NCBI RefSeq assembly: GCF_022376445.1
Contig: NW_025955079.1
Coordinates: 61,820-125,819 of the forward strand
Length of the DNA: 64,000 bases
Reading direction: 5' to 3'
Source: Fomitopsis serialis
Taxonomy: Eukaryota > Basidiomycota > Agaricomycetes > Polyporales > Fomitopsidaceae
Shown: one piece after another, positions 14,641 to 38,880 of the stretch
Numbering within the stretch: position 1 is the first letter of the stretch
Layout: every line of letters begins with the position of its first letter
The notes under the pieces: generated by a model
What the model was told of the DNA's origin: nothing
Database searches by the model: none
Seen by the model: only the letters and a program-made list of their open reading frames with translations
Program-made: the position numbers and the translations under genes

Positions 14641-14660
14641 GAGCCCATCTAGCTAAACAC

Positions 14661-14764
14661 CCTGTTGTTACCCGGCCAACCGACGTGAGATTCACTTATC
14701 GTTACCCGGTCACCCGACGTCGGCCGACGGTTTGACTCCGCCGTTAGTGCCCGGGTCGGCCGAT
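14661..14764 (+). repeat. Left terminal inverted repeat of KDZ element
   Basis: The sequence begins near TGTTACCCGGCCAACCGACG and matches the reverse complement of 38756-38860 over about 100 bp with scattered mismatches. It contains two direct copies of a TTACCCGG(C/T)CA(A/C)CCGACGT unit, which could be paired transposase-binding sites. About 20 bp between this repeat and the target-site duplication are much less well matched to the other end. Confidence 0.85.
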
Positions 14765-15500
14765 GCTCAGACTTTCCGGCCGGCTGCGTGTCGGCCGACG
14801 CGTCAAACTGAATGAGCACCTCCGGGTCGGCCGCCCACCACAGGTTGTTAGCTCCTTACATTGGCTGCTGACATCCCTCGCCGGTCGGCCGAGAATGAGA
14901 TTCCTATCTCCAGCCTCAGCGGCCGACGGTCAGAAATCCCTTGTCCACCCGGGCGGCCGGCGGTACGACCGGGCGGTCTATACCTGGTCGGCCGACCAGC
15001 GGGTGGCGTATTCGTCCCGCGGCGGCCGCGCGTTGGATAAACCATGGTAGTTTTCCCGGCCGCCCTGCTGAGGATCTACAGTCATTCTCAACCCAATCAG
15101 TGTCGCCTGGTGGGCCGATACCTTCCCTTGGCAATCATGCCGTAACAATACATCGGGGCGGTGGCACGTCGGCCGGAGAGTTCTCCAACAATAAGAGACT
15201 CACCATTATGTCCCGGTCGGCCGAGTCTGCTAAGAATGGCTTTCATGGTGCAGCAGCCGATGCACACAAGGCGATGCCGCTCTCCTTACTTTGTTGCCTC
15301 GGCCGGCATGAGGTATGTTGGATGCTGTCAGTTCGGCCGGGATGTGAGATTCCGGATCCCTATCGAGTCGGCTGAGACTCGAGCTGATCCGGAATCTCAC
15401 ATCCCTTTTCCTGTGGCTAGGGCGGTCAGTGGTTTCTCAGACCGCCGGGAAGCTAGGGGGGCGGGGCACTAGCATTGCTTTCCGACCGGCTGACATGATA
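14700..15500. repeat. Left subterminal array of GGTCGGCCGAC-type motifs; no gene
   Basis: About 800 bp with many scattered copies of the palindromic core CGGCCG, often as GTCGGCCGAC or GGTCGGCCG, in both orientations (for example near 14729, 14756, 14791, 14827, 14884, 14989, 15216). Short ORFs here follow the repeats and have no coding character. A matching array lies at the other end of the element. Such subterminal motif clusters usually bind transposase. Confidence 0.7.
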
Positions 15501-15602
15501 CACTGCAGCCATACCGAGTCGATCCCCACTGTCTCAAGCATCATCAGCGAGCCGGTTAAGGCTGCAAGCAATATATAATACACAACGGTTATCTAATTTC
15601 CA

Positions 15603-17803
15603 CTACTTTTTATCTGCGCCGCAGCGCTCCTTCAGCCTCAGCAGCATTTCCCCGCCTTGCCTGTTTGCCTTCCTCATTTCTCGCAGTGCCTCCAATCGCG
15701 CCTTCACGACATTGCTCTCCTGCATCTGCCGTCGCAGCATCGTCGGAAGGGGGCCTTCGTATGTGGGACCCCGGACGATCCCGTGGGCAACTGTGGCACA
15801 TATGAGAGACAACGGAATGCTCCATATGGAATCGGCCTACCTTGGAATTCCTCCTCCTCCGGCGATACTGCGGTGCGCCACGGCCCGGGCCACTCGCTGG
15901 GGGACTGCGATCGCCCGGCTGCAGAGGAATTCCCCCGGAATGGAGAACTGCTACCTGGAATATGAATCAACTTTGTGAGAAAGCCGCCACACCAGCGGAT
16001 CGACCACCCCGCCCGCCACCGGACGCCCGCCCCCGGACGCCCGCCCCCGGACGCCCGCCCCCGGACGCCCGCCCCCGGACGCCCGCCACCGGACGCCAGA
16101 AGTAGACTGGCTGTTCAAACGACTCACCTTCACCAGTGTTCGAACCCGACGGACCAGCAACATGTTCAGACCCGGCGGAGTCATGGGCCGGGCTACTGCT
16201 CAACGCACGTACACCCGAGCACTCTTCCACGAGGGGGATAGCCTGCAGTACCCAACTCGTCATCAGTTTGAATGTACCCACCATTTCGATGGCTTACCCT
16301 CGATAACGTAGCTTCAAACCGCGGTTCTTGTCCATCCGGGATGCTACCCAGCAAGACCTGTTCAATTCGCATCCCGGCAGGCATCCTAGCTTCATCCCTT
16401 GGGCCAGTTGCCCCAAGCCCGAATATGTTTCCGAATCGGGCAGGAACCCGCGGTGGCCCACGACCGGCGGTCATCGTTGTGGGTCCCAGGGAAGGGGAGA
16501 ACTGCGGACGGCTGGAGGAACGTGCCGGGTGCGGAGCGGCGACAGGCGTAGCCATTCTCGCCGGCCTGGGCGGGATGACTAGCGGTTGCTCGATGCCTCT
16601 CGACTCCATTTCCTCGTCACCCGATGACAAATCCAATGGCGTTGCAGCACGGGCAGGGGAGATTTTCGGATATGCAACGGCATGACCAGCCTGGGAAGCT
16701 GCGACCGGTGTAGCCTGCGGAGTCGCGACCGGCGTAGCCACTCTTGCCGGCCTGTTCGGGATGAGGAACGGTTGCCCGTCCGCCCCCGAATCAGATTCAT
16801 CGCCGCTTGATAGGTCGATCGCCGTAGAGAGGACGGAGCCGGTACGACTCGTCTTTGACCCGTGCGTTGATGAACCCGGGCGTGCTTGCCTGCTGGGGAT
16901 AACAAAAGGGCCCACGGGTCCCCCTACATCCGACTCGCCGTCCGAGTCACCGTCGGACAAATCGAGTGTTCCCGCACGCCCGCTCGATGCCGAGGTGGCA
17001 ACGGTGCTTGCAGATCTCGACGGCATAGCCAGGGGCTTGTCCAGGGTGTCCAGATCGGAGTCAGTGTCCGACAATACCAGAGCATTCGTCACTCTACTGG
17101 CAATGCCAGTGGTTCCGGGCCTGGTCAGGCCAACTGACGGTCTTACCGGCGTATTGCTTTCGGGGTCTGAGTCAGGGCAAATAACTACGGGAGCACCCGG
17201 AGGCCTTCGCCGCGGGAGAGGGACAGGCATGACAAACCGACGGCGGGGTGGTGACGCCTGTTTGGTTTCCCCGTCGGAGACGAGCATGGCATCAGCACCG
17301 GCACCATTATCTACACCGCCTGACGACGGGCCACCGTCCGGACTTGTGTCCTGCACCCGAGTCAATTGTATTCCGGGTTTCCCGATGACTGTGCTCACCA
17401 TGGCATCCGGTTCGGTGGGCGGAAGTGTACCGGGTCTCGGTGGGATGATCAGTGGTGCTGACACAGTAAGCCCGAGTCAATGTGGCATCCAGACTACAAG
17501 CCATTGCGACCCGACATACCTTGGTCATCCTCGACATCACTGGCATCCTGGGCGGCGTCACCGGGTGAGCGCACCATCCTATGTGAAACAATAAGTATCG
17601 ACGCACCGACAACGAACCGAGCAAGTCACGCAGCTCCTGCGACCGTGTCTCCTCTGGATTCGCCTGTCCGGACGAAATACCGGCTGGCCCGGATGTAGCG
17701 GGTGATCCTGAATATGGCGCTGTTAGGAATGCTTCCAATACGAGTATAAAAGTCACACTTACCATCTTTACGCTTCATAATCGCAACAACTGATTTCGAC
17801 ATG
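15603..17803 (-). CDS. Protein with a tandem array of SUMO-interacting-motif-like segments
   Basis: A multi-exon minus-strand gene, probably starting at ATG 17803 (MSKSVVAIMKRKDG). The main exon (17464 to about 16305) encodes roughly 390 residues in which hydrophobic-acidic segments recur: MLVSDGE, VVICPDSD, ALVLSDTDSD, TLDLSDGDSD, AIDLSSGDESD and PLDLSSGDEE (about residues 60, 93, 129, 167, 216 and 277 of that exon's frame). They match the core [VIL]-rich plus Ser/Asp pattern of SUMO-interacting motifs. Each is followed by a P(L/F)(V/L)IP-x-RPAR block. Later exons (about 16233-16131, then 15961 onward) end in a charged helix (LRRQMQESNVVKARLEALRE) and stop at 15603. The last large intron contains the 14-bp minisatellite. 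Divergent from the next gene. Function is inferred only. Confidence 0.6.
16011..16097 (+). repeat. 14-bp minisatellite, array 1
   Basis: About six tandem units of GGACGCCCGCC(A/C)CC, period 14 bp. It lies in what I read as the last large intron of the SIM-array gene, near its 3' end. Confidence 0.9.
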
Positions 17804-18017
17804 GTTGTAGGGAGCAAGAGGTTGGTTCAGATCTCATCAGTGAGATCGATCGGATGTCCCGCGGCGCGGCTCAGCCACACAGGTCACGTGTCTGTGGCTG
17901 CGTTCCCACAGTTCGTCGCTGCCGCTCAATCGTCTCTACCTGAATTCCGTCACCAACGTCCACTTCATTGCCGCCTGTAATCCGCCTGCTTCGCCCATCC
18001 CTCGGCTTTCGTTTACA
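17804..18017. promoter_or_regulatory. Bidirectional promoter gap between SIM-array gene and Cys6-A gene
   Basis: 214 bp between two start codons on opposite strands. No minisatellite and no CGGCCG array is present. It must hold the promoters of both genes if the starts are right. No sharp TATA box was identified. Confidence 0.45.
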
Positions 18018-21000
18018 ATGTCGTCGACAAACAACCCCGGTCCGGACGAAGACGGCCCTAAGGTAGTGACGATGGAGCAAGTCATGGGATTGTTGGTCCA
18101 ATGCGAGTCGAAACTCGAAGATTTTGTCAAGGCGGAGAAGATGCCCGAAGCCCAGGATGCGAAAGTAATGCAAAAGATCGTAAGTGTCTTTCTTTATATG
18201 CACGGGACATACTGAACATGAGTGTGCGGACCAGTGGAACAAGGTCAAAAAATGGGGGGTGCGTGCATCCGCTGTAGCTGTCCTTGCAGCATTAACTAAA
18301 ATGTTTGCCAGATCGATGCTGCCAAGGCTCTGTCATCCGCGGCTGCAAACGAGTGGCCGGTGTACGTGCCACCGTTGGTGATCTCCGCGATGGAAGAACT
18401 CGCGGCTCAACCGCCATACCCTGACCATCATGGGCGCGTCGCCCGTATCACGCGGGACGACCCGAGAATCCTCCAGAATCCGTGGTATACCCCGCGTGGC
18501 CCTCCCATTGTGGCCTCGGGCAAGCCGTCACATGTTGTGGCCTCACCACATCCCCTTCCCTCGAATTCCCGCCCCCAACATGCGGTCGCATTTGATCTCC
18601 CTGAAAACCACGAGGACGACATGGCCGTCGACGATTCCGGCGAGCCGGAAGTTAGTCCGAGGCCCACCAACCCCCCATTCCGCCGCCAAGTCACGCCCGT
18701 CAGGCCGGCGGCGAGACCGCCCACCCCGCCCACCAAGAAGTCCAACAAGCAGCGGTCAGGTGACGCCGAGCAAGGGGGACAGCGCCCCAAGCCCGGGCCG
18801 AAGAAACTGACCAGCACCGCGTCCGCTAAAGCAAAGGGAAAACAACGGGCGCGGAGCGTCGACTTTGCCGAGGACGCGGACGAGGAGCGAGAGCAGGTCA
18901 CGCGGAAAACAAAGGCGACCCCGGGGACCAAGGCGAAAGGCAAGAAGCAAGCGGACAGCGTCCGCCCTGTGAACGAGGACGAGGATGTGGACAATGTCCT
19001 CGTTGTGGACGAGGACGAGGAAGCGGAGCCCGTGGTGCCTAGGAAGAGCAAGACATCGAGCAGCAAAGCCCGCGGAAAGACACGGGAGGCAAGCGTCATG
19101 TCTTTGGACGATGACGAGGAGATGGGTAAAGGTGAGGAGCATATCCGTGGTGCCTAGCAGTCTCCCTGACGCCGCGCGCAGACCGTGAGGAATCGCCCAC
19201 CGACCTCGAGAACGCAGCTGCGGAGGCAAAAGCGTACTGGGATGTGGACATCACACCGGGTGAGGCCTTGGACCAACGCATTAGCAGGGCAATCAAGACA
19301 AAGGACATCAAGTATCTTGCGGATGTCGTTGCAGCCGAGCGCTCACAGGAGGGGCTGCCGCACTTCGACTGGGAGCACCCGGATATCATGAAGAAACGGC
19401 GCCAGAGATGGCTCAGAGTGCGCGTAAGTCATCCTGTTGCATTTCCCTCCGCACCGCTGACGCCTTTTGAAGCCCACGACTTGCATCAAATGCCGCTCCA
19501 TGCATTGCTGGATCTCGAGCGACCCCGCGCGGAACGCGAAGACCTGCGACGAGTGCTTCCGGGGCCACAATCCCTGTGTTGACTACGACACATCGGGAAC
19601 CCATGAAATCAAGCGCGGGCGGTCCCGCACACGCTCCCGCACACCGACTGGGCGGAAAGCAAATCCGCGAAAACGGTCGCGATCTCAGTCAGCGACGTCA
19701 GAGGCGACACCGCCTCCAGACTCTGAGTTCGACGGGGCAGCAGAATCGGACGCCGGATCAGTGGCCACTACGTCTTCTCGACGAAGCACCCGGACAGCTC
19801 GCCGTCCCGCGAAACGGCCGCGGATCGTGTCGGAACCAGTACAGAAAAAGAAGCGCGCCGGTAGCAGATCTGCCACGAAGACACCGGAGTTGTCAGCAGA
19901 GCCAGAAGACGCAAGTACTCCAGAACCGGGGTCCCCGGGTCGCGTCGCCGGCCCTTCGCAAAATGCCCGTCAAATTGAGCGACCGCGCGTTGTCCCGGCT
20001 TACATCGGAGAGACCCTGCATCGTGAGTTACTTCGTGGTGACCATGATGTGTTTCGCTCATATTAACCAGAAATAGCGCCGCTACCTTCCGGGCAAGAGC
20101 CGCGGGGGGTTGTGATGCTCCAGTCAGCAAGCGTAATTTCGCAGGAGCTACACAAGTTGCGACAGGAGAATGTGGAGCTGCGGCAGATGTACCAGCAGCT
20201 CAGGCAGGAATTCGACGCTTTCCGTGCGCTCGTCCTTGGCCGTGGTGAGTCATATCGGATGGATCCGTCGTAACAACACTGACGACTGCATTTCAGAGGG
20301 CCGCCTCCCTTCCGGCGAAACGGATACAGCATCGGGGCCGCCCGAGGCTTCGGGTTCCGGTACCCTTCAAGATCCCGAGGTCTTGCCGTCGACTTCGGAC
20401 CCTGAGCCATCGGCAAGCGAGCTTCAAGACGCGCCCGTCTTGGAGAACGACATCGATATGGATGAAGAGCAGGTTGCTCCCGGCGCCGCCATCACACTCT
20501 CGTTCGCAACGGACGTCCAGGGAGCCGACATCGAGATGGATTGGTCGGCGGAGAACAACATTGGATGGGAAAAGGCGGAGAGCCCGACACGAGCGGCGGG
20601 CCCTGTCCGCATGACCCCGCCTCCGACACTGAGCATGGCAGCGAGCCCCACACAGTCTGTTCCGGCCGAAATTCCACCCGCCGTGGTGGTCGAGGGCTCT
20701 GGCAGTGACGGGGCGCATCTCGGGCAAGACGACGCAGCGGCAGAGGCTGTGTCCCAGGACCTCGGTCCTGCGGTGCACGATGCCTCGCAGGTTGTTACCA
20801 GGCGGTCCCGAGGGCCATACCAGACTCCCCCGCCTCTCCCCCCCAGCCTTCCCAGACTCCCCCGCCTCTCCCCCCCAGACTCCCCCGCCTCTCCCCCCAC
20901 CGCCATGCCAAAGCCCTTCGGGTCTCGCGGTCGAAAACCACGATGTCAGAGAGAGTGGCGTGTCCGGCGACAAAGCGGAGGATGGGGGTGCCTGTGGCCA

Positions 21001-21489
21001 CTGCGACCCCCGCCCCCCAACTCGCACGATACGGTTCCAGATTCACAGCCGCCGGTCACCCCTTCGCAGGAAGTCCTTCCCGGTACGACTCCGGCCGAGC
21101 AGCAGTCGTCAAATGAGGCCCAGGAGAAGGTCGTGGAGACCCCAGGTAACGAGCCGGATAACGAGCCGGGTATTGTGCCACAAGGCACGTCCGCAGAGCC
21201 GGTAAGCAGCACGGTGCTCGATGCAGCGATGCATGCTCACAGCGTCGTGCAGACAGGCCAAACCCACGATGGGGAACACCCCGTATCACCGAGTGTTACG
21301 CCGAACGCGCCCGGACTTCATGGGGACTCGGACGTGACAGCGCAGCGGACCGAGCCGCCGGATGACAATGATGTTGTGATGACATCCGGGGAACACGAAC
21401 CCGGACCCAGCAATGATCAAGGCGGGGTTGCAACTCCACCGATGGTCCCCTCTTGGACGACGTTACAGGACTATGGCGGGGATTTGTAA
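18018..21489 (+). CDS. Cys6 zinc-cluster-like and coiled-coil protein A (paralogue of next gene)
   Basis: Seven exons join in frame: 18018-18179, 18235-18258, 18312-19131, 19182-19423, 19473-20022, 20071-20244 and 20297-21489, giving 1054 residues. Features in order: a short N-terminal helix; a VYVPPLVISAMEELA segment; a Lys/Arg/Asp-rich region; a conserved TKDIKYLADVVAAERSQE helix; a cysteine motif C-X2-C-X4-CWISSDP-X-C-X2-C-X6-C (exon 5); basic nuclear-localisation-like runs (KRPRIVSEPVQKKKR); a leucine-rich coiled coil (ELHKLRQENVELRQMYQQLR); and a long acidic, Pro/Ser-rich C-terminal region with an SPPSLPRLP-like repeat. The Cys spacing resembles a variant Zn2Cys6 cluster and the leucine helix resembles a dimerisation zipper, so a sequence-specific DNA-binding protein is a reasonable inference. 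Family not recognised by name. Confidence 0.75.
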
Positions 21490-21985
21490 TTTGGTAGTGT
21501 AACGCACAATGTACTAGTAGATTCTGTATATATTGTTGGAACCTCTTTTGCTGGAACAAAACAATACATGAACATGAAATTGAACTTGGACAATCTATCA
21601 TCCCTTGCACGCTTGCCCCGCCGCCGCACGCACGTCGCCGGCGCCCGCCCTCGGACGCACGCCGCCGGACGCCCGCCACCGGACGCCCGCCCCCGGGCGT
21701 CAGACATCAACATCCTCGTATGGACCGCCGGCCAATGTAGAGATTACCCGGCCGGCTGTGCCGGTGGCTTGGGTGCCATGACGGCATTATGGTAAGGATA
21801 TGTTGATATGTACTTATTTCGACCAATAGGATTTACTGCGGCCCCTTGGCCACATTTGGCCACGTGATCGTGGTTCGATTGCCACGCACGCCTGATCAAA
21901 TGCCACCTGGTTCCCTCCCTGCACTTCGTTGATCTCCCCGACATAATCCGCTCACTTCTGTACTGCTCTCTGTCGCCTTTCATTC
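21490..21985. other. Intergenic region holding minisatellite array 2
   Basis: Between two tandem paralogous genes. It contains the AT-richer 3' flank of the first gene (21490-21600), a minisatellite array at 21636-21699, and about 280 bp of upstream sequence for the next gene with CACGTGA at 21871. Confidence 0.6.
21636..21699 (+). repeat. 14-bp minisatellite, array 2
   Basis: About four degenerate units of the GGACGCCCGCCACC type, same orientation as array 1, about 150 bp downstream of the stop of the Cys6-A gene. Confidence 0.8.
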
Positions 21986-24431
21986 ATGGCTTCGACCTCC
22001 GCTTCGTCATCCCACCATGCTCTGCCGGGGGCAGCCGCTGACCCACTTAAGGGGTACGACGATCCCTTGGACGCCAACTTGGTCCTCGCTGCATATGGCC
22101 GCAACATCGAAACCCGCTTGAGGCAGGCCGAAAATCCCCGTCTTCAAAATCGGACAACAATTGCGCGGCTCGTGAGTTACTCCCATTCATTGTTTCACAG
22201 GCAGTAACACCGGGATTCCCAATGACAGTGGAATGGCATAGAAAATTCAGTGGTCAGTCGTAGCTCAGATTGGCACTGGTTTCAACGCCTTACATGGACC
22301 TTAGTTCAAAATAGGCGCGATATTGGAATCGGCTTCAGCGAGAGAGTGGGTAGTATACGTACCCCCGCTCGCTATTTCTGCGATGGAGGAAGTCGCCGGC
22401 AACGTGAGCGGAGACTATTCCACCCGCATGGCGCGCATCAAATCGGATGACCCGAGAGTCTTCACGAATGCCTGGTACTCCGCAAGTCCCCCGCCCGGTG
22501 GCCACCCGCTGCCCAGCTTTACCGGCATGGTGACCTCCGCTGCCCCCGGGAACCCACACGTCCCGACCGCGCCCGAAAAGACATCTCCGGCTGGTGCATC
22601 TCGGCCTACGACGTCCCACACAGCGCATGCAGTCCGGTTCCAGCTCCCACACGCCAGCACTGATCCCACGCACTGCAGTGAGACGCAGGAGGCGGAGCGT
22701 ACTCCGGGCCCTGCGCTGCCGGGCGGACAGGTGAAGCGTTCAACAGTGGGATGGAATTACATGGAGATATCGGAGGACAAGGCGGAACATTCTGTGACGA
22801 ATGTGATGGTGGCTGCACCGGTAACGTTAACCGGGCACCGGCACGGGGACAGCAATGATACCAGCGACGAGGAAGACGAGTTGCAGGAGGCCGTAGTGAC
22901 GAAGTACAAGAGATCAGGGGCCGGGAAAGCGAAGGGAAAGCGTCCGGCAAGCGAGATCGACTTTAGTGACGAAGAAGATCAATTGCAGGAGTCCGAGACG
23001 CCCACCAAGACAGTGAACCAGCGTGGGCAAGCCAAAAGGAAACGGCGGGGAGACAGTGTCGTGGTTGAGGTGCACAAAGACAAGAGACATGATCGTGAGT
23101 GACTCAGTATTGTATTGATTCATCCCGCCGCTTAAGATGTTGTTAGCGGTCCCGCACCTTCGTTCAGCACTGAAGAACCCGCTGCCCGTCGGCCCGTCAG
23201 CGGGCGACGTCAATGACGGCCCGGCGTACAGATACAAGGTCGACCAGGCCCTCAAAACCCACGACATCAATGCCCTCATCGATATCGTACAGGGGGAGCG
23301 GGCTGTCAAGCGCCTGCCCAAGTTCAACTGGGACGCCGGGAAGCTTCGGGGACGGCGCAAAGCTATCTGGCTGAGGACCATGGTGAGCTTGAATCGTTCT
23401 TTTTATCGCCGGGCACTCATTAGCCGTTGCAGGAGCCTCCATGCACGCGGTGCTCCGGCATTCACTGCTGGATCTCCAGCGATCCCAACGCCAAGCGTCC
23501 TGCTACGAAGTGTGACGAGTGCGCCCGACTGGGCAAAAAGTGCTTTACCAGCGAGGCCCGCAATCCGTCCCCGGCTGACGAGGTCAGGGCGGGTCGATCC
23601 AGCACACCAACCCCGCCCAACGCAAACACCCAACACCGAGCCCGATCTCCGTCTGCTCTGCCCGATGCAAGTGGCCCTCCGGAATCCACCGCGGAGGCGC
23701 CCGCGGAGCAGGACAATGCTTCAACCACCGCCACCACCACTCGAGGAAGCGGGGAAGAATCATGCGCTGACGGGCAGTGCACATTGGATGCGGACAAACC
23801 GCGCACCTTCGTCCGCGCATACATTGGGGCACTCCCGCCAAGTGAGTGTTTCATCCATTCCGCTGTGATCATTATTTACGTGTGATAAATGTACAGGATT
23901 GGCTCATCGGAAGCCGGACCCAAGTGCGGAGGGCATTGAGCTCCTGGAAACAACGGCGGACGTCTCATACAAAGTCCGAGAACTGCGACAGGAGAATGCC
24001 GAAATCCGCACCATGTGCGATGAGCTCCGGCAGGACTTCGCGACACTCCGTGAACACCTGAGAGCACGTAGTAAGTGAGACATGAAGTCCCTGGGCCATA
24101 CTGCACTGAAATCAAATTGGCAGACAGTATCCGTGCTTTCACGCACTTTGAACACCAGCCCGGAGCAGCGGCAGCTCCGGAGACGCTGGTTGATCATGGG
24201 GCGCAGACGAACGTTCCTGCCTCCCCGGATCCATCGTCGCTGAGCAGGCATGCCATCCCGGCACCCAACTTGGCAAGCCACGACGTACACGAGGTTCCCG
24301 ACGACACTGTTATCGCTTCCGCCACACTTCGGCATGCTTCCGCGTTGTGCACACAGGATGGCAGCGACATGGCCAGTACGGATGATGGTAGTGATTTGGA
24401 CATGTCAAGCGATGATCCCGACGCAGTGTGA
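21986..24431 (+). CDS. Cys6 zinc-cluster-like and coiled-coil protein B
   Basis: Tandem paralogue of the preceding gene with the same exon order. Exons: 21986-22171, a micro-exon near 22228-22251, about 22317-23094, 23147-23382, 23433-23841, 23897-24070 and 24124-24431. It shares VYVPPLAISAMEEVA, the KTHDINALIDIVQGERA helix, the cysteine motif C-X2-C-X4-CWISSDP-X-C-X2-C-X6-C, a basic region and the coiled coil (VRELRQENAEIRTMCDELRQ). Its C-terminal tail is much shorter than in the paralogue. The splice phase between the micro-exon and the third exon does not resolve with GT-AG sites as read, so either a one-base gap or a missed site is present. Role as for the paralogue: a putative dimeric DNA-binding protein, by inference. 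Confidence 0.7.
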
Positions 24432-24572
24432 CACTCGCTTGGGCCAATAATAATAACACTATATACGTGTAACGTATGATGATGAAATTTGATTGCATCT
24501 ACAACTTTATGGATTCGAACATAGAAGTTTCCAGCTTTGCTTAGTGAATGCTCATGCTTCAGTGGAGCACGA

Positions 24573-24701
24573 GCGGACGCCCGCCACCGGACGACCACCA
24601 CCGGACGCCCGCCACCGGACGCCCGCCACCGGACGCCCGCCACCGGACGCCCGCCACCGGACGCCCGCCACCGGACGCCCGCCACCGGGCGCCCGCCATG
24701 C
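24573..24701 (+). repeat. 14-bp minisatellite, array 3
   Basis: About nine tandem units of GGACGCCCGCCACC, the most regular array in the window. It lies between the convergent ends of the Cys6-B gene (stop 24431) and the next minus-strand gene (stop 24908). Confidence 0.92.
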
Positions 24702-24907
24702 CAGATGGTGGCAGCTGCAGCCGTTGCAAAAGTCATAGGTGTACTGCGTTCGTGGATGGTATCTCGCTGTCAACGCTTCCATCAAGGTCGACACATACTC
24801 AGCATTGTGAAGGTCGACATACACTACGGACTTTCGCTGGGAACATTGTACAACGTATATTACACATACAAATAGATTCGGAAACCTTTTCCGACATGTC
24901 ACTTTCA

Positions 24908-26365: not shown

Positions 26366-26497
26366 GATGGAAATCTTGGTGGACTTTCTGCATACCCTCA
26401 TGACCTGGCATCGGTTGCACGCTGAAGCGGTGGTACAACTGCTGAAGCGGTTCTGCGTAAACATCCATTCGTTAACTTGAAATGATACATTGACTGT

Positions 26498-28130: not shown

Positions 28131-28804
28131 GTGACATGTACTACAGTTGTCTGATGCACCTCCACAGCATGGTTGGCGTCATCTCTGGCTACATACTGCC
28201 GGCGGAGAGCCTGCACTGGTTCTGCGAGTGCCGGGTCGGTCCCTTTGTGCCCGAGGAAATTCCGGAGGTCGAGGGGCCTCGCGAATTCAACGCATTCGTG
28301 AACGACATACTGTGCATGATCGACTGGATTCGGGGTCTGGAGAGGAGCAAGCTCGTGCCTCCTGTGAGCTGTGAGTACCATCCCCAAGCACACGGGCTCC
28401 ATTACTGAGCCCCCCTCGAAACAGGGCTTCTCCCGGACCGGGGTGAAACTGCCGTCATCGTCACGGGGTACGAGGATCAGAAGAAGGGTGTCTCCCGGAT
28501 TCCGGAAGACGACAGGCAGGTTCGCGCGCGCGACCGGTTTGTCAAACACGCGAATCTGGCGGCCGGGAAAAACGTCTTTGTGAGCTCGACCTTGCAATAT
28601 TTTTGCACCGCGGAAGAGAACCTGGAGCTTCCCCTCGCACTGTGAGTGAGCGATGTGACCGCTTGGTCCGCGAGCTGATCAAGAATGCACAGGTGCTTCG
28701 ATCCGCCGCCGCAGAAAGGCAAGGAGAAGGCCGCTGAACCGGTACAGCCCCGGTACAATTTTCGACCTCGCAACCCGTCCCGAGAGCCAACTCCCCTCTC
28801 TTGA
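28131..28804 (+). CDS. Small unknown protein, three exons
   Basis: Exons about 28137-28371, 28424-28638 and 28692-28804 join in frame with GT-AG introns. The start is not fixed; candidates are the ATG codons at about 28154 and 28169 or an upstream exon. Visible segments include LHWFCECRVGPFVPEEIPE, DILCMIDWIRGLERSK, ETAVIVTGYEDQKKGVSR, FVSSTLQYFCTAEENLELPL and a basic end YNFRPRNPSREPTPLS. Three exons in one frame make it a credible gene. Function unknown. It is divergent from the nuclease-like gene and convergent with the following minus-strand gene. Confidence 0.55.
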
Positions 28805-28975
28805 TCTGTAGTTAGTCGTCTGAACATGTGCCTATTTTACGCGGTGTACGATATCATATGTAGGGGTTGGAATTGCATGTTTGTCTCTTGATAAGGACTG
28901 GTCTGATTGCGCCAGCGGGAGCACATGCAGCGGGCGGATGTGTGTTGTCACCTTCAGCTAAAGCCCGGCCGGTGG

Positions 28976-29033
28976 CACTCATCCGGCGGCGGGCGTCCGG
29001 AGGCGGGCGTCCGGCGGCGGGCGTCCGGCCCCA
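28976..29033 (-). repeat. 14-bp minisatellite, array 5 (inverted relative to arrays 1-4)
   Basis: About four units that read GGCGGGCGTCCGGC on the plus strand, the reverse complement of the unit in arrays 1-4. It is located between the convergent stops at 28804 and 29159. Confidence 0.85.
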
Positions 29034-29158
29034 ACAATCTGTATCCCACACACACTACACAGACAAGGCAATACATGCATTATTCTCATTCTTCGCCGTC
29101 GGAAACAAGCCATGCAGTGCAATAACGCTCCCACCACCATTTCTACCGAACCGTCCCA

Positions 29159-32100
29159 CTAGTGCCGGGGCTTCTTGGCGGCACGTTGCCCCTTCGTCGG
29201 AGACACGGGCTCGCCCTTGCGGCCGCGCTTCCGGATCCTCGTGCCAATGGCAGATGCATCCGACCCGGTACCTGGAGGATTCATGAGGCGCTTCGACCGC
29301 TTTGGAACTTCCTCCCACTCTTTCGCCAGTGACTTGCAAGCATACAGCAGGCGATCCTTGACGAACGCGTGATCATGCAGAGTGTTAAGTACGTGATCCG
29401 GTAAGTTATACTTATCACGGTTGCTCGACAATGACTTTTCTAAGTCATGCAGCAGCATTCCGATCGTCAGAGCGAGGGTTTGAGCTTCAACCATGCTGAT
29501 TGTCGTTCCCTTCATGCTCGTCGTTATCTTGCTCAGCCATGATTTGAAAGATCGAATTTCGGCAGCGTTGTTGTGGGCAGCGGGCGGGCAATGACTCTTC
29601 CGGTAAGACCACATGCCCCATTCCCAAGTCTTTGATGTACGCCATGACCCGGCTTGTGACTAACAGGACGCTCCCAGTCAGCAGGTACTATCCATCCACA
29701 TGACGAGCGGCCTTACCAAAGCGGGAATTCCATCCAGCAACACACAATAGTGTTTGTTTCTGGACAGTTCTCGGAGGAACTGCATGCGATCAGAAACTTC
29801 ATCCCTCATTTTTGCAGGTGCTCCGTCTTCTACAGCCTCTTCGTCCGAGACCCCATCCGAGCCCGTTGATGATGCTGGCGGTGTGGGTCCCTGGCAGTTT
29901 GACCGGCAACATCCACCGGGGCCACCAAAGACATTGCGGGAGCACCAGCCGTACCTGAAGGTCCCACCGAGGCCGTCCGTGCAGTACGGGACGACCAATT
30001 CCGGGGCAAGTCCTTCCCGAGCGGCCTACGTTTCCTGGGCGCGATCGTAAAGCTGAACCACTCTCCCGCTCCGGGATAACATAATAGGTTGCAACGCCTG
30101 GGATGGGCCGGCAGTGTTCCCATCCCGCCGACGGGGCCGGGGCACGACCCGTGGGGGTGGACATGGCGATTCTGACAACCGCTCCGGGTTACCCTGCACG
30201 GCTGTACTGCTCATGCGCTCAATTACAAGCCCCGACGTCAACCTCAACAGAGGATTTCGTGCCTTTGCATTGGAACGTGCGGCCGGACGTTGAGATGGCA
30301 TTGGACTAAAAAGGTCGGAGGCAGGAGGCACCTCGGCTCGTCCCTTGCCTTTACGATCCACCACGAGCATCGGCGGTTCGGGCGTCGACGACGAGGAGCG
30401 AAACGGCAGCCCCGCGTCTGAACCGGGGAGGATGTCCGAATGCGGACTTTGCTTTACCAGCGCGGTGTTGACCTCCCGGCTGTGTTGAACATCGTTTATG
30501 GAAGACGGTGGGCGTTCCGGCGAAGGCAGGGCGAAAGGGTTACCTTGTCGTGACGAGGAGGGGCGGGGTAGCGGGATCGCTGCCGGTGGAGGAACTGGAA
30601 GATGAGGACGATGAAGAAGACACGAGTTCTCGTCCGCTAGATCGCGTTGGACAGCGGAGTCTACGTCACTGCCCTCTGCATTTGACTGCAGTTCAGGTTC
30701 GTGCCTGTTGTCGCGCTCGTCGTCTCCATCGGATGCGTCACTGTCTTTTCCGGAGTGACGCTCGCACGCTTCGAGCCACTTGGATGTGGGCGGCGACCCT
30801 TCGGATGGGGGGACGATTGACGCCGCGGGCGGGCACTCCGGGCAGCGCGGCGGGAAGCAGTCCTCGGCTCCTCATGCTCCAGAGACACGATTTCGCTTTG
30901 ATGATTTCGGTAGGCAATGAAACGCATCACAAAGGCAAGCCTGAGGAATTAGCCCTTGTCCGCCAGTGTGCGATAAGAGAGTCAACCTCCGCCTGTTTCA
31001 GATGCGACGGTTCTTGGAGGGTGACACCATTTGGAAGGGACCCGGCCTCGAGAGCTTCTCCGGTGTCGCCTGGAGAGCGACCCAGGGGACTTTCAACTTC
31101 GGCATTTTTGTATACGCCACTGTTGCGTCGCTGTCAGTACCCAGTGATATCACGCGGATCAGATGCATACCGTAATGGAGCCGGAGAATTCTGAAATGAA
31201 CGCCTTCTTATTCCGTAGATTCTTGAAGCACTCGTCGCTGTGGTGCGGCATACCGGGGGTGTCGTCATCGTACATCTCCCAGTCAATCTTCGGCACACCC
31301 CGCTTATTCGCCCTGACATCCGCATCACTGTCTTCAGATACATCGTCGCCCGCTGAAAGCGTGAAATCGTCGATGAGCCAACCGGACAAGCCAGGAAGTG
31401 GTGGAGGTCATTCACTTACCGAACAGTTTGTGCCCGTAGTCCTTGAACAGATCTCGGAACCCGTCTGCACGTTTGTAGTCGGGGTACATGTCCTTGAATT
31501 TGACGCGACCGGCCGCGCGCTCGGCATTGGGGTCGACAAGGTCATTGCAATCAAAGCTGGTCAGAGCGCCATAATGAGCTCCAGGGACCCAATTACAAGG
31601 AAGGTATGATACGCACTCGATTACACTGGGTTTGCCTTCCAGGGATTTATAGACCCGTGCACGAACACGCGCATCCCGAAGTGCCTCCAAACGTATTTAG
31701 AAAAATCCAACATGACCGCCTCGCTCTTCCGGACGATGTTCCGGTCCTGCAATTCATGAGGTTGCCCTTCCGAATTCCACCGGACAGCCTCCTGCTTGTA
31801 TTCCCGCTGTTTCGCCCGGGGAGACTGTTGGCCAGATTTCGCAGCTCCTTTTGATACGTAGCGAGAAAGTCCTTGTCTCCGTGAGCGACCCCGGTCGCAG
31901 CTATCTTCTCGTCCAGTTCCCCGGGCATGTGCCAAGCCACACACGGTGCCAGTTCAGGCGTCGGCCGAATGCGGAGGGACGATCTTTCTTTTTCTTATTC
32001 TTCACAGGTGCGGCATTGTAAAACCACGCCCGGACAGCCTGATTATACATTATGCAATGTATCTGCGCAGCATGACAGTCAACGTACCTTTTTTCCTTCC

Positions 32101-32250
32101 TTCTTCATAGCCCTTCCCCGGTGGGCCTCCAACTTCTCGACAGCACGCGACCGGACATCTTTACGGTCATTCGAGTCACCCGCCTTCCACTCCGAGAGGA
32201 AGCTGCGCAGGATGAGGAGTTCTCCAGGTGTATAAGACGTAGCTGGCATG
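29159..32250 (-). CDS. Agaricomycete repeat-associated protein of unknown function, with frame breaks
   Basis: Starts at ATG 32250 (MPATSYTPGELLILRSFLSE). Exon 1 ends about 32089 and the next begins AVRAWFYN. Segments VAHGDKDFLATYQKELRNLA and then MLDFSKYVWRHFGMRVFV resemble a widespread uncharacterised Agaricomycete family (WFYN ... YQ.EL..L ... MWR.FGMRV) that I remember from repeat-rich loci. A long Pro/Ser-rich exon (about 30870-30030) and a final exon ending KRGRKGEPVSPTKGQRAAKK (29614-29159) follow. Two one-base frame breaks lie in the conserved part, one in or beside an AAG/A run near 31985 and one in a CCCC run near 31825, so this copy is either decayed or has sequence errors. Function unknown. 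Confidence 0.55.
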
Positions 32251-32605
32251 TTGGGTGTACAGAGCTAAGGTGACAGCTCATACGGTGCCAGCTGTACGCT
32301 GCGTCTCCCATGCGTTTGCCTCATGGAACTAGGCGCCCGGTAGCTTCTCGTCGGCTACGATGTTGCAATATCTGTGAATGGTGGCCCATGTCGAGTGTCG
32401 GATATTAGACAAACTGCCCAAACGCAGCAATTTGCATGCAGCTTTCCACAGACACCAATCACAGCATATCTCGCCGCCCGGGGGCCATGTCCGAGCAAAT
32501 CGGAGGCAGCTAGCCGAGGGTGCGGTATCCTCAAGGTGAACACGTTTCCGCACAGTCATTCCCCAAGTCTGTCGAGCGACCTTGTCCACTACCCACCTGC
32601 TGCAC
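32251..32605. promoter_or_regulatory. Divergent promoter gap before the transposase gene
   Basis: 355 bp between the start of the minus-strand gene at 32250 and the probable transposase start at 32606. It is moderately AT-richer than the genes and contains no minisatellite. Alternative upstream starts for the transposase cannot be excluded. Confidence 0.4.
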
Positions 32606-35600
32606 GATGGCGAAGCCCAGGGTAAAGCGACGATGCAGCTCACCCAAAGTTCAAGAAGTCGAGATACAACGCAAACAGACCTCAAGAGGGCTCAGGACAC
32701 GACTCGTAGTCTTACCGGACGAAGGCCCATCCACCCAAAGTCTTCATCGACACCGTCGGCACCGACCGCACGTCAATCGAAGGGCTCTGAACCGTCGCAC
32801 CGACAGCACGTCGTTCGAAGGGCCTGTGGACACCGCAGTCAACCGTCGACCCGCCCGATCGCCCTGTCGAGCCTTCCACTCCACCGCCTCTTCCGTCGGG
32901 CCCCCAGCAACCACAGCGCCGTGCCCGGGCCCCAAAGGTGCGATGAATGCACATCCGCATATCGGGAATGCGGCTAATATTTGAGTAGACCCAACCGACA
33001 TGATGACGGCTTGGCTTCCATACCGGAATGAGTACTTGGAGCACATGTACGCAGCTCACGCCTCACCAACATCCGACAATACCGGCACCGCGACATGCAC
33101 AAAATGCTTGGCTGGCTCCGCTGAGTGGAAGTGCCTCTCCTGCTTCGGCGGGCCAGTGTTCTGCGAATCCTGCTGCCTGGGGAACACGCCCGACTACCAT
33201 TCCACCGTCTGGAGCGCTGGGCGCAGACATTCTGGGCCCCTTCCTGGCTTCGCACCTTAGGCCTTCGGATTCACCTAGGTCACGAAGGCGCTCCCTGTCC
33301 GTGCGTTGACGAGCCCGACAATGAGAGTGACTGGTCGGACGACGATTCTTGCAATGAATCTGACAGTGGTGAAGAGGATGAGGAAACTCTGGGGATCCCC
33401 TTCGTGATGCGGCGGGGGTTGAGCGGGCTCCGGAAATGCATATGACGATCGTCGACACGTCCGGGTGCATTTCATTCCGTTGATGCTGCCGTTGCCCTGA
33501 GGCGGAGTCAGTTCGTGGTCAGCTCCTCCAGGCGGGCTTTACCCAGCAGCCAGCTAATGTCAAAACGTGTTTACCTTCGACGTACTGGATGACTTCCTCT
33601 CGACAATCTCGAATGCAAGACTCCGCGATGAACTATTATCGCCGACTTCGCCGGAAGACCAATCCGGCATTCCCGCATCGTGTGCCGGTAAGTCCAGCCA
33701 CCCGTGCGGACGTTCGCCTTGCTCATCACCACACTGCAGGATCGCTATGCGAATTCATGCGTGCCACCAGACAGTGGACGCTGCTCCGGGCTATGATGCA
33801 GTTCGGATTTGGTCCGAAATGGCGGGGGGAACCGGGGACGGGCGATCTTGCACTATTCTGTGCTGCCTGCCCACAGCCGGAGTGAACATTCCAGACGACT
33901 GGGACAGTGACCCGAATGCGTGAGTGACCGGGCCGTAAGCCGTGAGCAGCAATTGAACGTATGGACAGGTACATTTAGCTCGAGGCTATGTCATGGATGG
34001 TAACTTCTCGCTGAGCATATGAAGATGCGGAAGCCGGGCAACGATGTTCCGCTTATGCCCGGAAGGCGTTCATGGTGACGGATGAAGAATTGGCCCTCAT
34101 TTGAAGTCATCCACTGATATAAAAATGGTGGGTGGGTGAAGTTGTGTTGAGGGTTGTGCTGATTCAGTACAAGAAACCGACATGCAATGACCACCAAGCT
34201 ATCGCTCGGGCCAATGCTCACCGCCACAAATTACAGTCTACCGGATTGGGGCCACGGCTTGCTCACGCCACGGATGCTTCTTTCCACATGCGGTTGTCAA
34301 CTTCCAGGCCGGTGAGCGGCAGAAAAACATGGATTACACGCTGTCGGAAGCTATGAGCTACCGGTCGGACGGCATCAAGAACGCCATTGTGCTGTACGAC
34401 GTGATGTGTCAGTATGGTGTGCACCTCCCAAAACGCTTCAAGGACGGACCGCGGCTCCGGATGCCGCGGGGCCTTACACTTTACCTGGGCATCGGCTTGT
34501 TCCATGTACATGGCCACCAGTCGAAGTGCCTGCTCGAGTACGCCCCGACGTTCATGCGCGGCGCCGGACAAGTGGATGGGGAGATCGTCGAAACGATGTG
34601 GTCTCCATTGGGCAAGGTGTTCGGAAGTACTCGGACGATGGCGACGTCGCATCGGCAAGAAACTCTCGACCGTCATATGAACGACTGGAATTGGCGCAAA
34701 ATGGTGTCATTAGGTGCGGGAAGCAGATCAACTGTCCGGTGTTGCAGGTTCTCACCCCCTTCCAGTCCCAGCATTGAAGAAACGCATTGCCGCAAACCGG
34801 GTACTCCTTGAGAGCTTCCGAGAGGCGCTGGAGGATCAGGAAGCCGGGATCGAAGCCGACATCCTGGCTCAATGGATGTCAGCGGTCGCAGAAGCCCACA
34901 AAAAACGTGTGAAGGATGTGACAGTGATGGACGCATTTGAGGTTCAGGGCCAGCATGGTGAGTGGCGGGTGGCGGATATTACACCACTGATCGCTGACAT
35001 GTAGAGTAGCTCCGTCAAGGGCGGAAATACAAATCGGTCTGACCGAAAAGGAAGGGATAACAACATCATCGTCGGAGCAGCGGAGTGGATGGTTGAGGGA
35101 ATGAGGATTGAGGATGCACAGTGCGTAATTACAATCCGGCCGTCCGACATTCAATGCTCACAATCCGACAGAATTGCGCTGCAGCGGGTAGTAAGGGCCT
35201 ATGGGACCAAGACAACGGCAGAGCAGCGTTTGAACATCGCGAAACAGAGAAAACGGCTCGAACTCCGGATCGAGCGCTTCCTAAGGAAGGGGGAGGAGAT
35301 TGTGGGTACGAACGAATGGGACGACGGTCGGCAGCATACCGAGGTTATCGACGACAACGGTGACCTATCCGACTGGGAAGACATGCAGAACAACGGCCAA
35401 GCAGCCGCCGGGCCCAACGTAACAGGCAATGTCCCGGCTTCTACTCCGAAATCAAGAAAGCGAGATGGGAGGGCAGCGGAGTGGCGGCTGTTGTCACTTC
35501 CATCGTCCTACTCTGTCGACACGATCAAGACTGCGGACGTGCAGCCATATGCAAAAGCGGAACTGGAGCTACGAATCGGGCAAGCGAACGACATCTTGCA

Positions 35601-36297
35601 CCAATTGCGGATATTGCTCAGCCAAAAGTCATTTGTAATGCGTGCGAAGGTGCGCGATGCCAAGTCTCAGTCGCGGAAGACACGGGCGTGGGCGGATGTG
35701 CATGCTGTTCAGAAAGGAGTGGAACACCAGGCCCGTATGTACAGGAAGGTGCGGCATGCGATGACAGTGCTCGGAGCAACAACGTCAACACTTCGAAAGT
35801 ACCAGAAATTGGTGCCTGACGACTTGAAGGTCAGCACAGCAATCGTAGAACCGAACCAGAGGGGGCAGCGACATACCCGGCTACCCTGGATATGGACGAC
35901 GGATGTTCAAGGCGATATGAACGCAAATGAGACAATGACGGAATGTAAGCAGGTCACCGGTCGCGGTACATCTACAGAATCATGATTTTTTACAGTACAC
36001 CGTGTGCATTGGTTCCGAGCACGGTCACAGTTCGAGCGAGCCGAAGAAGAGGACAATATCCTCCGCCGGGAGCTGGATTCTGTCCGGAGATATTTTGAGT
36101 ACGAGACGAAACGGTGGGCAGATCATGCCGCCAACCGGAAGAGCGGAAAGTATCCTGGGTATGCGGAGGTGTGCCGTCACAGGCAACATATGTACAAGTG
36201 CTACAAAAGGATGCTGACACTGCCTATGGTATCATGTACCTGGGGAGATAATACAAACTGTTTCCTTATACCGTTATCGCCATCCCAATTTCCCTAA
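32606..36297 (+). pseudogene. CxC2-domain KDZ transposase, with multiple frame breaks
   Basis: All regions of a KDZ transposase can be read in order. A basic, Arg-rich N-terminus (MAKPRVKRRCSSPK) is followed by the CxC2 zinc domain (CTKCLAGSAEWKCLSC, FCESCC, then FHRLERW and LGLRIHLGHEG). Next come CRCPEAESVRGQLLQAGF and FDVLDDF, then NYYRRLRR and QWTLLRAMMQFGFG. The catalytic core has D in MDGNF (about 33997), D in LYDVMCQYGVHLP (about 34399) and E in the GEIVETMW segment (about 34591). The C-terminal region has EQRLNIAKQRKRLELRIERF, RIGQANDILHQLR and KTRAWADVHAVQ. Several one-base gaps break the frame (near 33179, 33485, 33577, 33748, 33885, 34250), mostly in short homopolymers. The last exon ends at 36297. 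Either the copy is dead or these are sequence errors. Confidence 0.85.
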
Positions 36298-36314
36298 CTC
36301 AACATGCGTCCGCC

Positions 36315-36413
36315 GCCTGATGTCCGGTGGCGGGTGTCCGGTGGCGGGTGTCCGGTGGCGGGTGTCCGGTGGCGGGTGTCCGGTGGCGGGGTCCGGTGGC
36401 GGGTGTCCGGCGG
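36315..36413 (-). repeat. 14-bp minisatellite, array 6 (inverted)
   Basis: About seven units reading TCCGGTGGCGGGTG on the plus strand, one of them shortened by a base. The array lies exactly between the convergent ends of the transposase gene (36297) and the TET/JBP gene (36519). Confidence 0.92.
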
Positions 36414-36518
36414 AGGACGCGTCCCCTTTTAATGCTGTGATGGTGCACTACCGTGGCAGAACCAAGCAGTTAACAATGTTTCGGGTCATGAAATACAGGC
36501 AAAATTGCTGATAGCTAG

Positions 36519-38125
36519 CTAGAAGTCGACCGTTAGCCAACTGGTCTTCCTAACGTTGGCCCATGTATGCACTTGGGGCCTCATGTAGTATACTACGCAT
36601 AGCCTCTCCCTATTAGAACGTGACACGGAATGAGGGAGCAGGGAACCAGAGAACAAAGCCGCGCACCGCCGGCGTACTGCAATTTGAGGCCGAGGGTCGG
36701 GAGCTCTAACACCGTGTTGTCGTCCCCCCCAATCGTTATAAGGAGATCGTACAAGTCCTTTGCCGAGATTCTGTCGACGTGGAGTGGCGTTCGGCGGTTG
36801 GTTATAACGGACATCGCGTTGAATGGATTACCCCACAAGGGGAGAACGTCCGCGATGTCGGGACAAATCCGAGTTGAGGCGAGGGCCGCATAGCCCATAG
36901 CATGCAACTCCGGATGAATTATCCGGAGCATGCCTGCAATGAGGGCGTGCTGCTCTGTCATTGCCCGCAACCAATCCCGGCCGGGAGATTGTTGATCTGA
37001 CAACGTCGAGGACACCTGTGGCGGATACGTAGTACCCTGGAGAGACAATGTTGGTCCAGCACTGCTGCTGCTCAATGCTGCGTACCTGGTGACCTTGCTG
37101 GTACCAACCCGGAGAGAAAGATATGCAGCCGGGGTCCAAGCTTTCCCATTGTCCGGTTGCCGCGAAGTTGTCCGGATGCTTCCGCCATGTTTGCGAAGGC
37201 TGCGGACGACACTTCTCGAGCATGGGATTGAGTAGGAAAGTATTTTCCCATATCTTAATCTGAGGGGTTTGTGAGTTAGCATCAATGGATACCCCGGGAA
37301 GGTACAAGGCTTGCCTTCTGCGCGGCCGTTAGGATACCAGGCAGGTACCAAAGCAGTATATGTCCCGCTGCATCGATGGCGGTGGCGGGCTGTGTGAAGA
37401 TACCGTCGCCAAGTTCAAGGGGCGGGAATTCCTTCATGGCGCGATGAAGGCGGGGCATTGTCCGGTCAGAGATTTCCGCCGGGATAGCCTCCGCATAATC
37501 CTCTGCATTCCAATCCACGAAAACTTGGCTATGCAGTGAGCTTAGGCGTGTTGCCAAGGCGTAGACCATGCTCACATCGACGAGAAAAGGCTTCAGCAAT
37601 GATGTCGACCATTTGGTGTGCCTGGCCGATCATTTCCGGACTAAAGTCGGGGTCCGGCGCGGGTGACACATTCTGCCCGGCAGTCCCAGCCGAACAAGCC
37701 AGTCTGTAATCGTACAACGTAACCATATAAGTGGATACACGCATGTCGAGATTTTCGTGCGGCATGGCGGGAGGAGACTGTGTTGATCAGGTCGGCAAGG
37801 TTCGATGAGATCTTCGGTGGGTCTGTATAGTTTGTACAACAGTCGCATGCAAAAGCTGTGGCTGGTAAATGTCTAGTAATGGTCTTACATTCCCGGAAGA
37901 TCGGGCAGATCTCCTTGTGATCAGTTCATTATGGGATCTCGGGCCGGACTCTCCGGGGGGGGGTGCATCGTTATCATGATTACGCAGTGATTGAAGTGCT
38001 GCATTAGGGCGCATCCGGGCTGCATCCGCAATGCTGAGGGTGTGCACTGGTGGTGTGTGGGATAGGAAAATGTGATTTACCAGCGGCACGAAGGAAAGGA
38101 ACACACAGACAACCGGCCGACACAT
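36519..38125 (-). CDS. TET/JBP-family 2-oxoglutarate/Fe(II) dioxygenase (5-methylcytosine oxidase type)
   Basis: Multi-exon minus-strand gene. Exons visible include about 38016-37900 (ADAARMRPNAAL), 37765-37576 (MPHENLDMRVSTYM), 37524-37313 (TAIDAAGHILLWYLPGIL), 37260-37091 (SPGWYQQGHQ) and 37020 to the end. The double-stranded beta-helix core is present: MSVITNRRTPLHVD with the iron-binding H-x-D, LYDLLITIGG, LELPTLGLKLQYAGG, a second iron ligand in SGSLLPHSVS, and RERLCVVYYMR. This is the basidiomycete TET/JBP pattern. Enzymes of this family oxidise 5-methylcytosine in DNA. One missing base near 36652-36659 separates the HxD and the distal His in the sequence as given; the frame resumes and ends at TAG 36519. 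The first exon is uncertain (possibly ATG 38125). Confidence 0.8.
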
Positions 38126-38755
38126 ATTTCCCGGAAGGAGATACCTTCCACTTGGGTCCGGCCGAGAATTGAATGGACAGCACATTTGTTATCAATTATC
38201 ACGACCGGCCGCTCGGATATCAGCGGGTTCACAAGGGGTCGGCCGGCCGGTCACAACAATGCGTCCGGACGGCGGCCCACCAGGCATAATTACAGTAGTG
38301 CAGTGTCGGCCGACCGGGTGGAGATGCATGCATTGTAGAAAACACGTCGCTGCGGCCGCAATGGGACCGTTGAAACGAGGTGTCGGCCGACCGGGCAATA
38401 GTGGTTCCCCTGAAAAGCAATCCCAATGGTGTCGATCCGCGGTCCCTCGGCCGGCCAGAATGCCATGGTTTGCCTAATGGCCGGCCGCCATGGGACCAAC
38501 GTCCTGTCCGACCGCCGGCCGACGGGGTACAGATGCATCCGGAGCACGCTCGGCCGTCAGGGTGTATATGGTGAGTTTTGACCGTCGGCCGACCTGTGAG
38601 CCCCCCAACATCTCACCGTCGGCCGACCCGCGGGGGATGACGGCACACAATGCCAATCCCAGCACACACCCTGCGAGCTCTGGTGGGCGGCCGCGACGGG
38701 AACACCATCGCGGTTCGACCCGTCGGCCCATCCGCGCGCGCCCGGATATTTTGAC
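38110..38755. repeat. Right subterminal array of GTCGGCCGAC-type motifs
   Basis: Dense scattered copies of CGGCCG/GTCGGCCGAC (for example near 38114, 38158, 38238, 38306, 38384, 38449, 38512, 38586, 38620). It mirrors the left array. Apart from the possible first exon of the TET/JBP gene no coding region was supported here. Confidence 0.7.
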
Positions 38756-38860
38756 CGTCGGCCGACCCGGACAACAACGGCGGAGTCACACCGTCGGCCG
38801 ACGTCGGGTGGCCGGGCAACTATAGGCGAATCTCACGTCGGGTGGCCGGGTAACAAACCA
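38756..38860 (-). repeat. Right terminal inverted repeat of KDZ element
   Basis: Reverse complement of the left repeat at 14661-14764, including the duplicated CCCGGCCACCCGACGT unit and the GACTCCGCCGTT segment. Mismatches are scattered, mostly single bases. Confidence 0.85.
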
Positions 38861-38880
38861 GTAGTTTGACCCCATTATGT

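Follow-up and report, generated by a model that had tools for sequence, protein, structure and literature searches.

KDZ transposons carrying a TET gene (TET+ Kyakuja) were described in December 2025 from Agaricomycetes, Polyporales included, with 7-bp target duplications (Kojima 2025, PMC12730594). According to the main text of that account, Kyakuja duplications are 7 bp and Zisupton duplications 8 bp long, and two families, Kyakuja-1_LB and Kyakuja-2_LB, have CA..TG termini and no terminal inverted repeats. KDZ1-3 of Cryptococcus neoformans, as presented in PMC12810828, measure about 9-11 kb and have inverted repeats of 139-241 bp, CxC1 and 4-8-bp duplications. For the Arabidopsis pair VANDAL21/VANC21, VANC binding and demethylation have been measured (PMC5735166). 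The element described here lies in a 64,000-nucleotide stretch (the window, C23:61820-125819) of the 66.2-Mb, 806-contig genome of the polyporalean wood-decay fungus Fomitopsis serialis, whose contigs are designated by C-numbers. Its features point to a TET-carrying, Kyakuja-type KDZ transposon. We consider it quite probable that it belongs to a recently active cut-and-paste family made of two modules that were exchanged between lineages: a right module (genes A, KDZ and TET) that would be the core, and a left module (genes G, F, E, C, B and D) that would be an extra block.

Like the TET+ Kyakuja elements as set out in the main text of PMC12730594, the F. serialis element combines a KDZ transposase, an AG-type TET/JBP gene, 7-bp duplications and a CA at one end. 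It was placed with Kyakuja because of the size of the duplication, the KDZ plus CxC2 composition of the transposase and the type of the TET/JBP gene. An 8-bp duplication, the mark of Zisupton and Dileera, was not found, the eighth base agreeing in 2 of 8 end pairs. Some features speak against the placement. The second end reads GAGCCC inward, giving TC where the published elements have TG, and the inverted repeats, absent from the first two published Kyakuja, are here long and subterminal; CA..TG and repeat-less ends are reported for two Kyakuja families, the source text leaving unstated whether they define all Kyakuja. Moreover, the assignment is built on the shared features rather than on a tree of named Kyakuja, Dileera and Zisupton transposases. 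Relative to the TET+ Kyakuja as presented in the main text of PMC12730594, about six genes, 14-bp arrays and fold-back derivatives are added; the words "cargo" and "zinc" are absent from that text. With Cryptococcus KDZ1-3, as portrayed in PMC12810828, the element shares its nature of a mobile basidiomycete KDZ transposon with long inverted repeats, from which it differs in size (24 kb), in having CxC2 and in its 7-bp duplication.

The limits of the element and the features that define them are as follows.

14641..38881, + strand: whole element, 24,241 bp; termini recur among copies, and a paralog of the uninterrupted site lies on C157
14634..14640, no strand: left copy of the 7-bp target duplication, CTCTTGT; such a 7-mer is common to 8 of 9 same-contig end pairs
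14641..14664, + strand: asymmetric left terminus, GAGCCCATCTAGCTAAAC..., at 15 left ends genome-wide with at most 3 substitutions
14665..15440, + strand: left inverted repeat and subterminal CGGCCG-rich region
38082..38856, - strand: right subterminal CGGCCG-rich region and inverted repeat
38857..38881, - strand: asymmetric right terminus, CACATAATGGGGTCAAA... read inward; outer C in 13 of 13 right ends found
38882..38888, no strand: right copy of the 7-bp target duplication

Searching the genome with each end probe gave 29 match places, and 15 left and 13 right termini (at most 3 substitutions) were identified in the retrieved ends. A search with the pattern GCTCTTGT was uninformative, returning 1259 places per strand. 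A C adjoins ACATAATGG at all 13 right termini found, the base beside the 15 left termini being variable; because of this constancy, the C was counted as part of the element. Nine convergent pairs of ends share a contig, and in eight of them (C23, the small C72 copy, C144, C185, C265, C423, C64 and C75) an identical 7-mer stands beside both ends. The eighth base agrees in only two of the eight, the window copy among them (end pairs and base agreements were counted by hand). Since the right-end C is constant as well, the duplication is 7 bp long, and the eighth matching base at the window copy is, on these counts, a coincidence. Thus, the original prediction, which placed an 8-bp direct repeat around a 14641..38880 element, was right about precise boundaries but set the right edge one base short and the repeat one base long. 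Its view that these are the ends of a mobile element is borne out by the further copies, found with the same ends and with duplications. In the ninth pair (C72, 20731 and 66312) the flanking 7-mers share nothing. Because its outer flanks mismatch, the right flank (66312) matching the left flank of C447 instead, C72 is probably a chimeric join of two copies. In addition, the right flank on C100 matches the left flank on C102.

The inverted repeat begins 24-25 bp inside the ends. Identity extends to 190 of 234 aligned positions, for an alignment score of 192 against a best of 33 among 200 Markov-shuffled pairs. Outside it, the terminal 24 bp on the left do not resemble the terminal 25 bp on the right, and each of these sequences recurs among copies; therefore the predicted inverted repeats, although real, are not strictly terminal. 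The mirrored subterminal arrays noticed originally are equally evident: the outer 800 bp contain 15 and 17 CGGCCG motifs at the two ends, as compared to 15 in the 22,641-bp interior and to no more than 5 in any of the 1000 sequences generated per end with a first-order Markov model.

As originally proposed, the insertion interrupts a DUF6589 gene. PF20231 is matched on both sides of the element, and the frame is open across the junction once the element and one repeat copy are removed. The left flank has two further genome matches, one on C49 (first half only) and one on C157 (95%, stopping at the junction). The C157 sequence aligns continuously, at 87% over 1500 bp, through the left flank, a single CTCTTGT and the right flank. 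By this alignment, C157 carries an uninterrupted DUF6589 paralog, its allelic status being unproved; no allelic empty site was found, only this paralogous one. The DUF6589 gene (window 12388-39885) adjoins a helicase gene (40165-42102; PF00271). A full-text literature search returned no paper on DUF6589.

The window copy was compared with two other complete elements, on C144 (27.2 kb) and C75 (23.2 kb). A nested hAT transposase gene (PF05699, E 5.1e-19), about 0.9-5.9 kb from the left end, mostly explains the extra length of the C144 copy. Two comparisons bear on the age of the insertions. The right end of the window copy has 99.2% identity to that of the C369 copy across 1.67 kb, and between C100 and C144 the identity of the KDZ regions reaches 99.8% across 3.7 kb; in both cases the flanking 7-mers differ. 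Near-identical copies in different surroundings indicate that the family moved recently.

Gene models were made with an intron-aware codon model and are approximate; the C75 and C144 models fused some adjacent genes, which were split again via homology. In the window the models are the following.

15606..15836, - strand: short conserved reading frame, either a tenth small gene or the final exon of G; 45% identity over 65 residues to C144
16193..17802, - strand: G, acidic low-complexity protein, extent approximate; 427-amino-acid open frame with equivalents in C144 and C75
18018..21489, + strand: F, 7-exon model of 1052 amino acids, with a cluster of six cysteines and a coiled coil
22383..24431, + strand: E, paralog of F, start uncertain
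24908..25998, - strand: C, at the same place of the gene order in all three elements
26498..27493, - strand: B; protein P0001 is 99% identical over 89% of B; 12 genome loci, all of this family
27967..28804, + strand: D, accompanying B on all 12 contigs
29159..32249, - strand: A, relative of P0004 and apparent core member; window frame not modellable as a whole
32607..36248, + strand: KDZ transposase gene, frame-disrupted in the window copy; PF18758 E 1.1e-36 at 34191-34808
36519..37765, - strand: TET/JBP dioxygenase gene, AG type, frame-disrupted near the 3′ end in the window copy; PF12851 E 1.9e-7

The order G(-) F(+) E(+) C(-) B(-) D(+) A(-) KDZ(+) TET(-) is the same in all three elements. 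This agrees with the nine genes announced for the window copy and extends them, at about that number, to the other two. The original notion of a basidiomycete KDZ transposon of large size and with many genes is right. The window copy matches the KDZ domain (PF18758, E 1.1e-36), and its transposase frame, like that of TET, is disrupted as assembled. In KDZ, a frame change and stops lie away from the C144 intron positions; in TET, a frame change lies near the 3′ end, as it does in C75. Copies open at these places exist, and the disruptions may be assembly errors. The C144 KDZ gene is intact, with PF18758 (E 7.3e-48) and CxC2 (PF18803, E 2.9e-26) matches above the Pfam cut-offs. The window TET scores 30.9 bits with PF12851, below the 34.9-bit cut-off, and the C144 match is likewise just below it. 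However, the C144 protein matches the CcTET structures 8jkk and 7vpn at about 5e-20, and AG-type residues (HxD, Gly/Ser and Asp at CcTET 331 and 337, second His) are recognised by eye in its open frame.

None of the block genes scanned has a Pfam family above cut-off. The paralogs F and E share a CX2CX4C...CX2CX6C cluster and a coiled coil, the latter read by eye. Gene B has a nuclease-like look by eye (PDF...VEVGS) to which Pfam lends no support, and we do not claim it as a nuclease; its structure prediction, made from three near-identical sequences, has a mean pLDDT of 35.3.

The two parts of the element are distributed differently in the genome. Gene A has 19 distant relatives (24-38% identity), of which 16 have a KDZ match in divergent orientation no more than 10 kb away (hand count; the exceptions are on C484, C179 and C264); of the 17 contigs that hold the relatives, 14 also carry a TET match. 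Owing to this clustering, A-KDZ-TET looks like a core that recurs at KDZ loci elsewhere in the genome. Such loci, where TET and gene A have distant relatives, are numerous (C28, C58, C163, C545, C634 and other contigs), which suggests that several other Kyakuja-like families are present in F. serialis. Genes B and D, the only block genes traced genome-wide, occur on the same 12 contigs and have no other genome match at E 0.001. They are adjacent and divergent in 11 of the 12 loci, C72, where they lie 22 kb apart, being the exception; all of these contigs but C399 also give an element end match. In the protein database, B finds three proteins, A one and an F/E profile one, from F. serialis where named; these searches rely on common 5-residue words and similar length, so that distant homologs may escape, and in two of the three the candidates were so numerous that scoring was confined to the best. 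The left-hand set (G, F, E, C, B and D) would form an extra block beyond the core. Hence the term "cargo", applied originally to the whole gene set, suits the left-hand genes only, as A, KDZ and TET cluster elsewhere and look like core. In a search covering few subscription papers, none was recognised, by title or abstract start, as describing a KDZ element with an added gene block of this kind, with such arrays or with fold-back copies; the block of about six genes is the part for which no published counterpart was found.

Synonymous divergence does not follow a single pattern along the element. In the left block, dS between C75 and C144 is 0.40 for F, 0.65 for B and 0.32 for D, whereas either element differs from the window copy by 1.28-2.50. 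In KDZ, C75 is closest to the window copy (0.31, interval 0.25-0.37), followed by C75-C144 (0.48, 0.41-0.56) and C144-window (0.63, 0.54-0.72); TET ranks the same way (0.34, 0.46, 0.59) with overlapping intervals. Gene A is intermediate (0.62, 0.75 and 0.86 for the three pairs) and E less clear (1.11, 1.39 and 1.90). Thus the window copy is the outgroup in the left block, yet the closest to C75 in KDZ. Since one shared history cannot give both patterns, the elements are mosaic, and the simplest account would be an exchange between modules, whichever genes took part in it. Selection was estimated for the three pairs by the Nei-Gojobori method with 200 codon bootstraps. Between C75 and C144, dN/dS is 0.31 for F, 0.32 for B, 0.29 for D, 0.22 for A, 0.10 for KDZ, 0.20 for TET, 0.48 for E and 0.86 for G; over the element pairs it ranges from 0.31 to 0.32 for F, 0.21 to 0.32 for B and 0.29 to 0.36 for D. 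These values indicate that B, D and F are under purifying selection. An earlier comparison gave 0.16 for gene C (176 codons); a second set of values (0.79-1.31, 116 codons) was set aside as the exon phase looked wrong.

Arrays of a 14-bp unit with a CGGACGCCCGNNNN core are found in corresponding intervals of the three elements, C75 having an extra, weak one near G. In the window they are placed as follows.

16010..16097, + strand: array 1
21617..21696, + strand: array 2, between F and E
24574..24698, + strand: array 3, between convergent E and C
26293..26365, + strand: array 4, between C and B
28982..29029, - strand: array 5, between convergent D and A
36321..36410, - strand: array 6, between convergent KDZ and TET

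By hand count, and taking the small left frame as a tenth gene, arrays occupy 6 of the 6 internal intervals that contain a gene 3′ end and none of the 3 divergent ones (G/F, B/D, A/KDZ). A random pick of 6 out of 9 intervals would give this placement 1 time in 84. Array 1 falls inside G if the small frame instead serves as that gene's last exon. The least conserved part is spacer positions 12-13 in C144 and the spacer in C75, the window spacer being nearly constant except for position 13; units were registered by the core, which biases conservation toward it. A two-unit pattern with at most one mismatch occurs at 134 + 142 places in the genome (0 + 0 for a reversed control), and the 100 of the 276 places listed are on C21, C23, C26, C64, C72, C75, C86, C100 and C102, all family-bearing contigs. 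The motif CGG-N4-CCG-N4-CGG-N4-CCG is present 18 times in the window copy, 25 times in C144, 21 times in C75 and 27 times in the 4046-bp fold-back copy of C72; it is absent from the 39.6 kb of the window outside the element. As in the VANC case, a short motif has built up as tandem arrays within the non-coding stretches of a single transposon family.

Five short copies (3.8-4.5 kb) have the look of non-autonomous, fold-back derivatives. In each, a left and a right terminus are flanked by matching 7-mers, and the inverted arms are long.

C72:11670-15714: apparent fold-back copy, arms 99.6% identical over 1277 bp
C265:6523-10617: apparent fold-back copy, arms 92.4% identical over 1496 bp
C423:31312-35134: apparent fold-back copy
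C185:37503-42011: apparent fold-back copy, arms 99.75% identical over 1601 bp
C64:60944-64804: apparent fold-back copy

What they have in common with the window and C144 copies is, among the matches listed, ends and arrays. The C72 copy, the only one translated, showed no gene recognised by eye, no family scan having been run. The C64 copy is flanked by two TET matches (C64:60708-65173) and, for this reason, seems to sit in the TET relative of another KDZ locus.

Elsewhere in the window, a retroelement polyprotein with integrase and RNase H domains lies on the left (2520-9241, - strand). Reverse transcriptase and tyrosine recombinase-like frames, DIRS-like by eye, are seen at 44615-53649 (+ strand), without support from a Pfam scan.

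How might such an element work? The substrate of the transposase would be the asymmetric ends, together with the inverted repeats and CGGCCG-rich flanks, and its action leaves 7-bp duplications; the fold-back copies, which have no recognised genes and keep the ends, would be moved in trans. In the reading that we prefer, and advance tentatively as one that may well prove wrong, F and E would bind the CGG-N4-CCG arrays and/or the CGGCCG motifs through their Cys-cluster/coiled-coil architecture and bring the TET enzyme to the arrays, causing local cytosine demethylation as VANC does for plant VANDAL transposons. In its complete form this becomes a self-recognition system against silencing: Cys-cluster proteins would label the element by way of the arrays beside gene 3′ ends and draw its TET enzyme to them, arrays and binders would diverge together by lineage, and fold-backs would exploit the arrangement. 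We regard this fuller version as doubtful. The present case differs from VANDAL21/VANC21, as PMC5735166 describes it, in being known from sequence, in carrying a TET gene and in the apparent lack of relationship between the proteins. Further points tell against our interpretation. DNA binding by F and E and demethylation of the arrays are both predictions. Similarity of F and E to Zn(2)Cys(6) proteins is marginal, one protein out of three matching PF00172 at E 1.2, and that reading was set aside. The orientation of the arrays varies among elements. Finally, strong constraint is not evident in E (dN/dS 0.41-0.48, with poor alignment), and G shows weak or no constraint (0.77-0.86).

The arrays and the CGGCCG motifs might instead serve transposition only, as sites for the transposase or for F and E acting as accessory proteins in the manner of TnpA of En/Spm, or they might be minisatellites that expand wherever other constraint is lacking, with no aimed anti-silencing in either case. 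We give this nearly an even chance. CGGCCG is concentrated at both ends, and the C72 fold-back, with ends and arrays, has a matching duplication, so that these suffice in cis. The absence of arrays from exactly the divergent intervals fits as well, as promoters there may tolerate no insertion. Such a role accounts poorly for arrays deep inside the element, at corresponding places in three elements that differ in spacers and share the core, and for the presence of a TET gene. That the left-hand genes are captured host genes benefiting the fungus appears improbable. They are indeed missing from the other A-KDZ-TET clusters seen in the genome; however, B and D match nothing else there, the database gave only three proteins for B and one for the F/E profile, from F. 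serialis where named, and gene order is constant in three diverged elements. Starships of filamentous ascomycetes, large gene-carrying mobile elements with a tyrosine-recombinase captain, have variable cargo; the present element resembles them in being large, fungal and gene-carrying, and departs from them in its KDZ transposase and its constant gene order in three elements. The chimeric look of C72, with mismatched flanks and B and D 22 kb apart, and the hAT nested in C144 could suggest that the 24 kb were wrongly assembled or consist of unrelated elements nested in a pile. This is highly improbable, as the two ends, the matched 7-mers and the gene order are common to three elements on different contigs, and an uninterrupted site exists on C157.

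The family thus represents a KDZ transposon about twice the 9-11 kb of the Cryptococcus elements, in which a conserved core appears to exchange with a faster-diverging gene block. Transposon-borne TET is thought to undo silencing. For the question of how such an enzyme would be aimed at its own element, the family offers testable candidates: element-encoded Cys-cluster proteins, family arrays at fixed positions, and fold-backs with ends and arrays.

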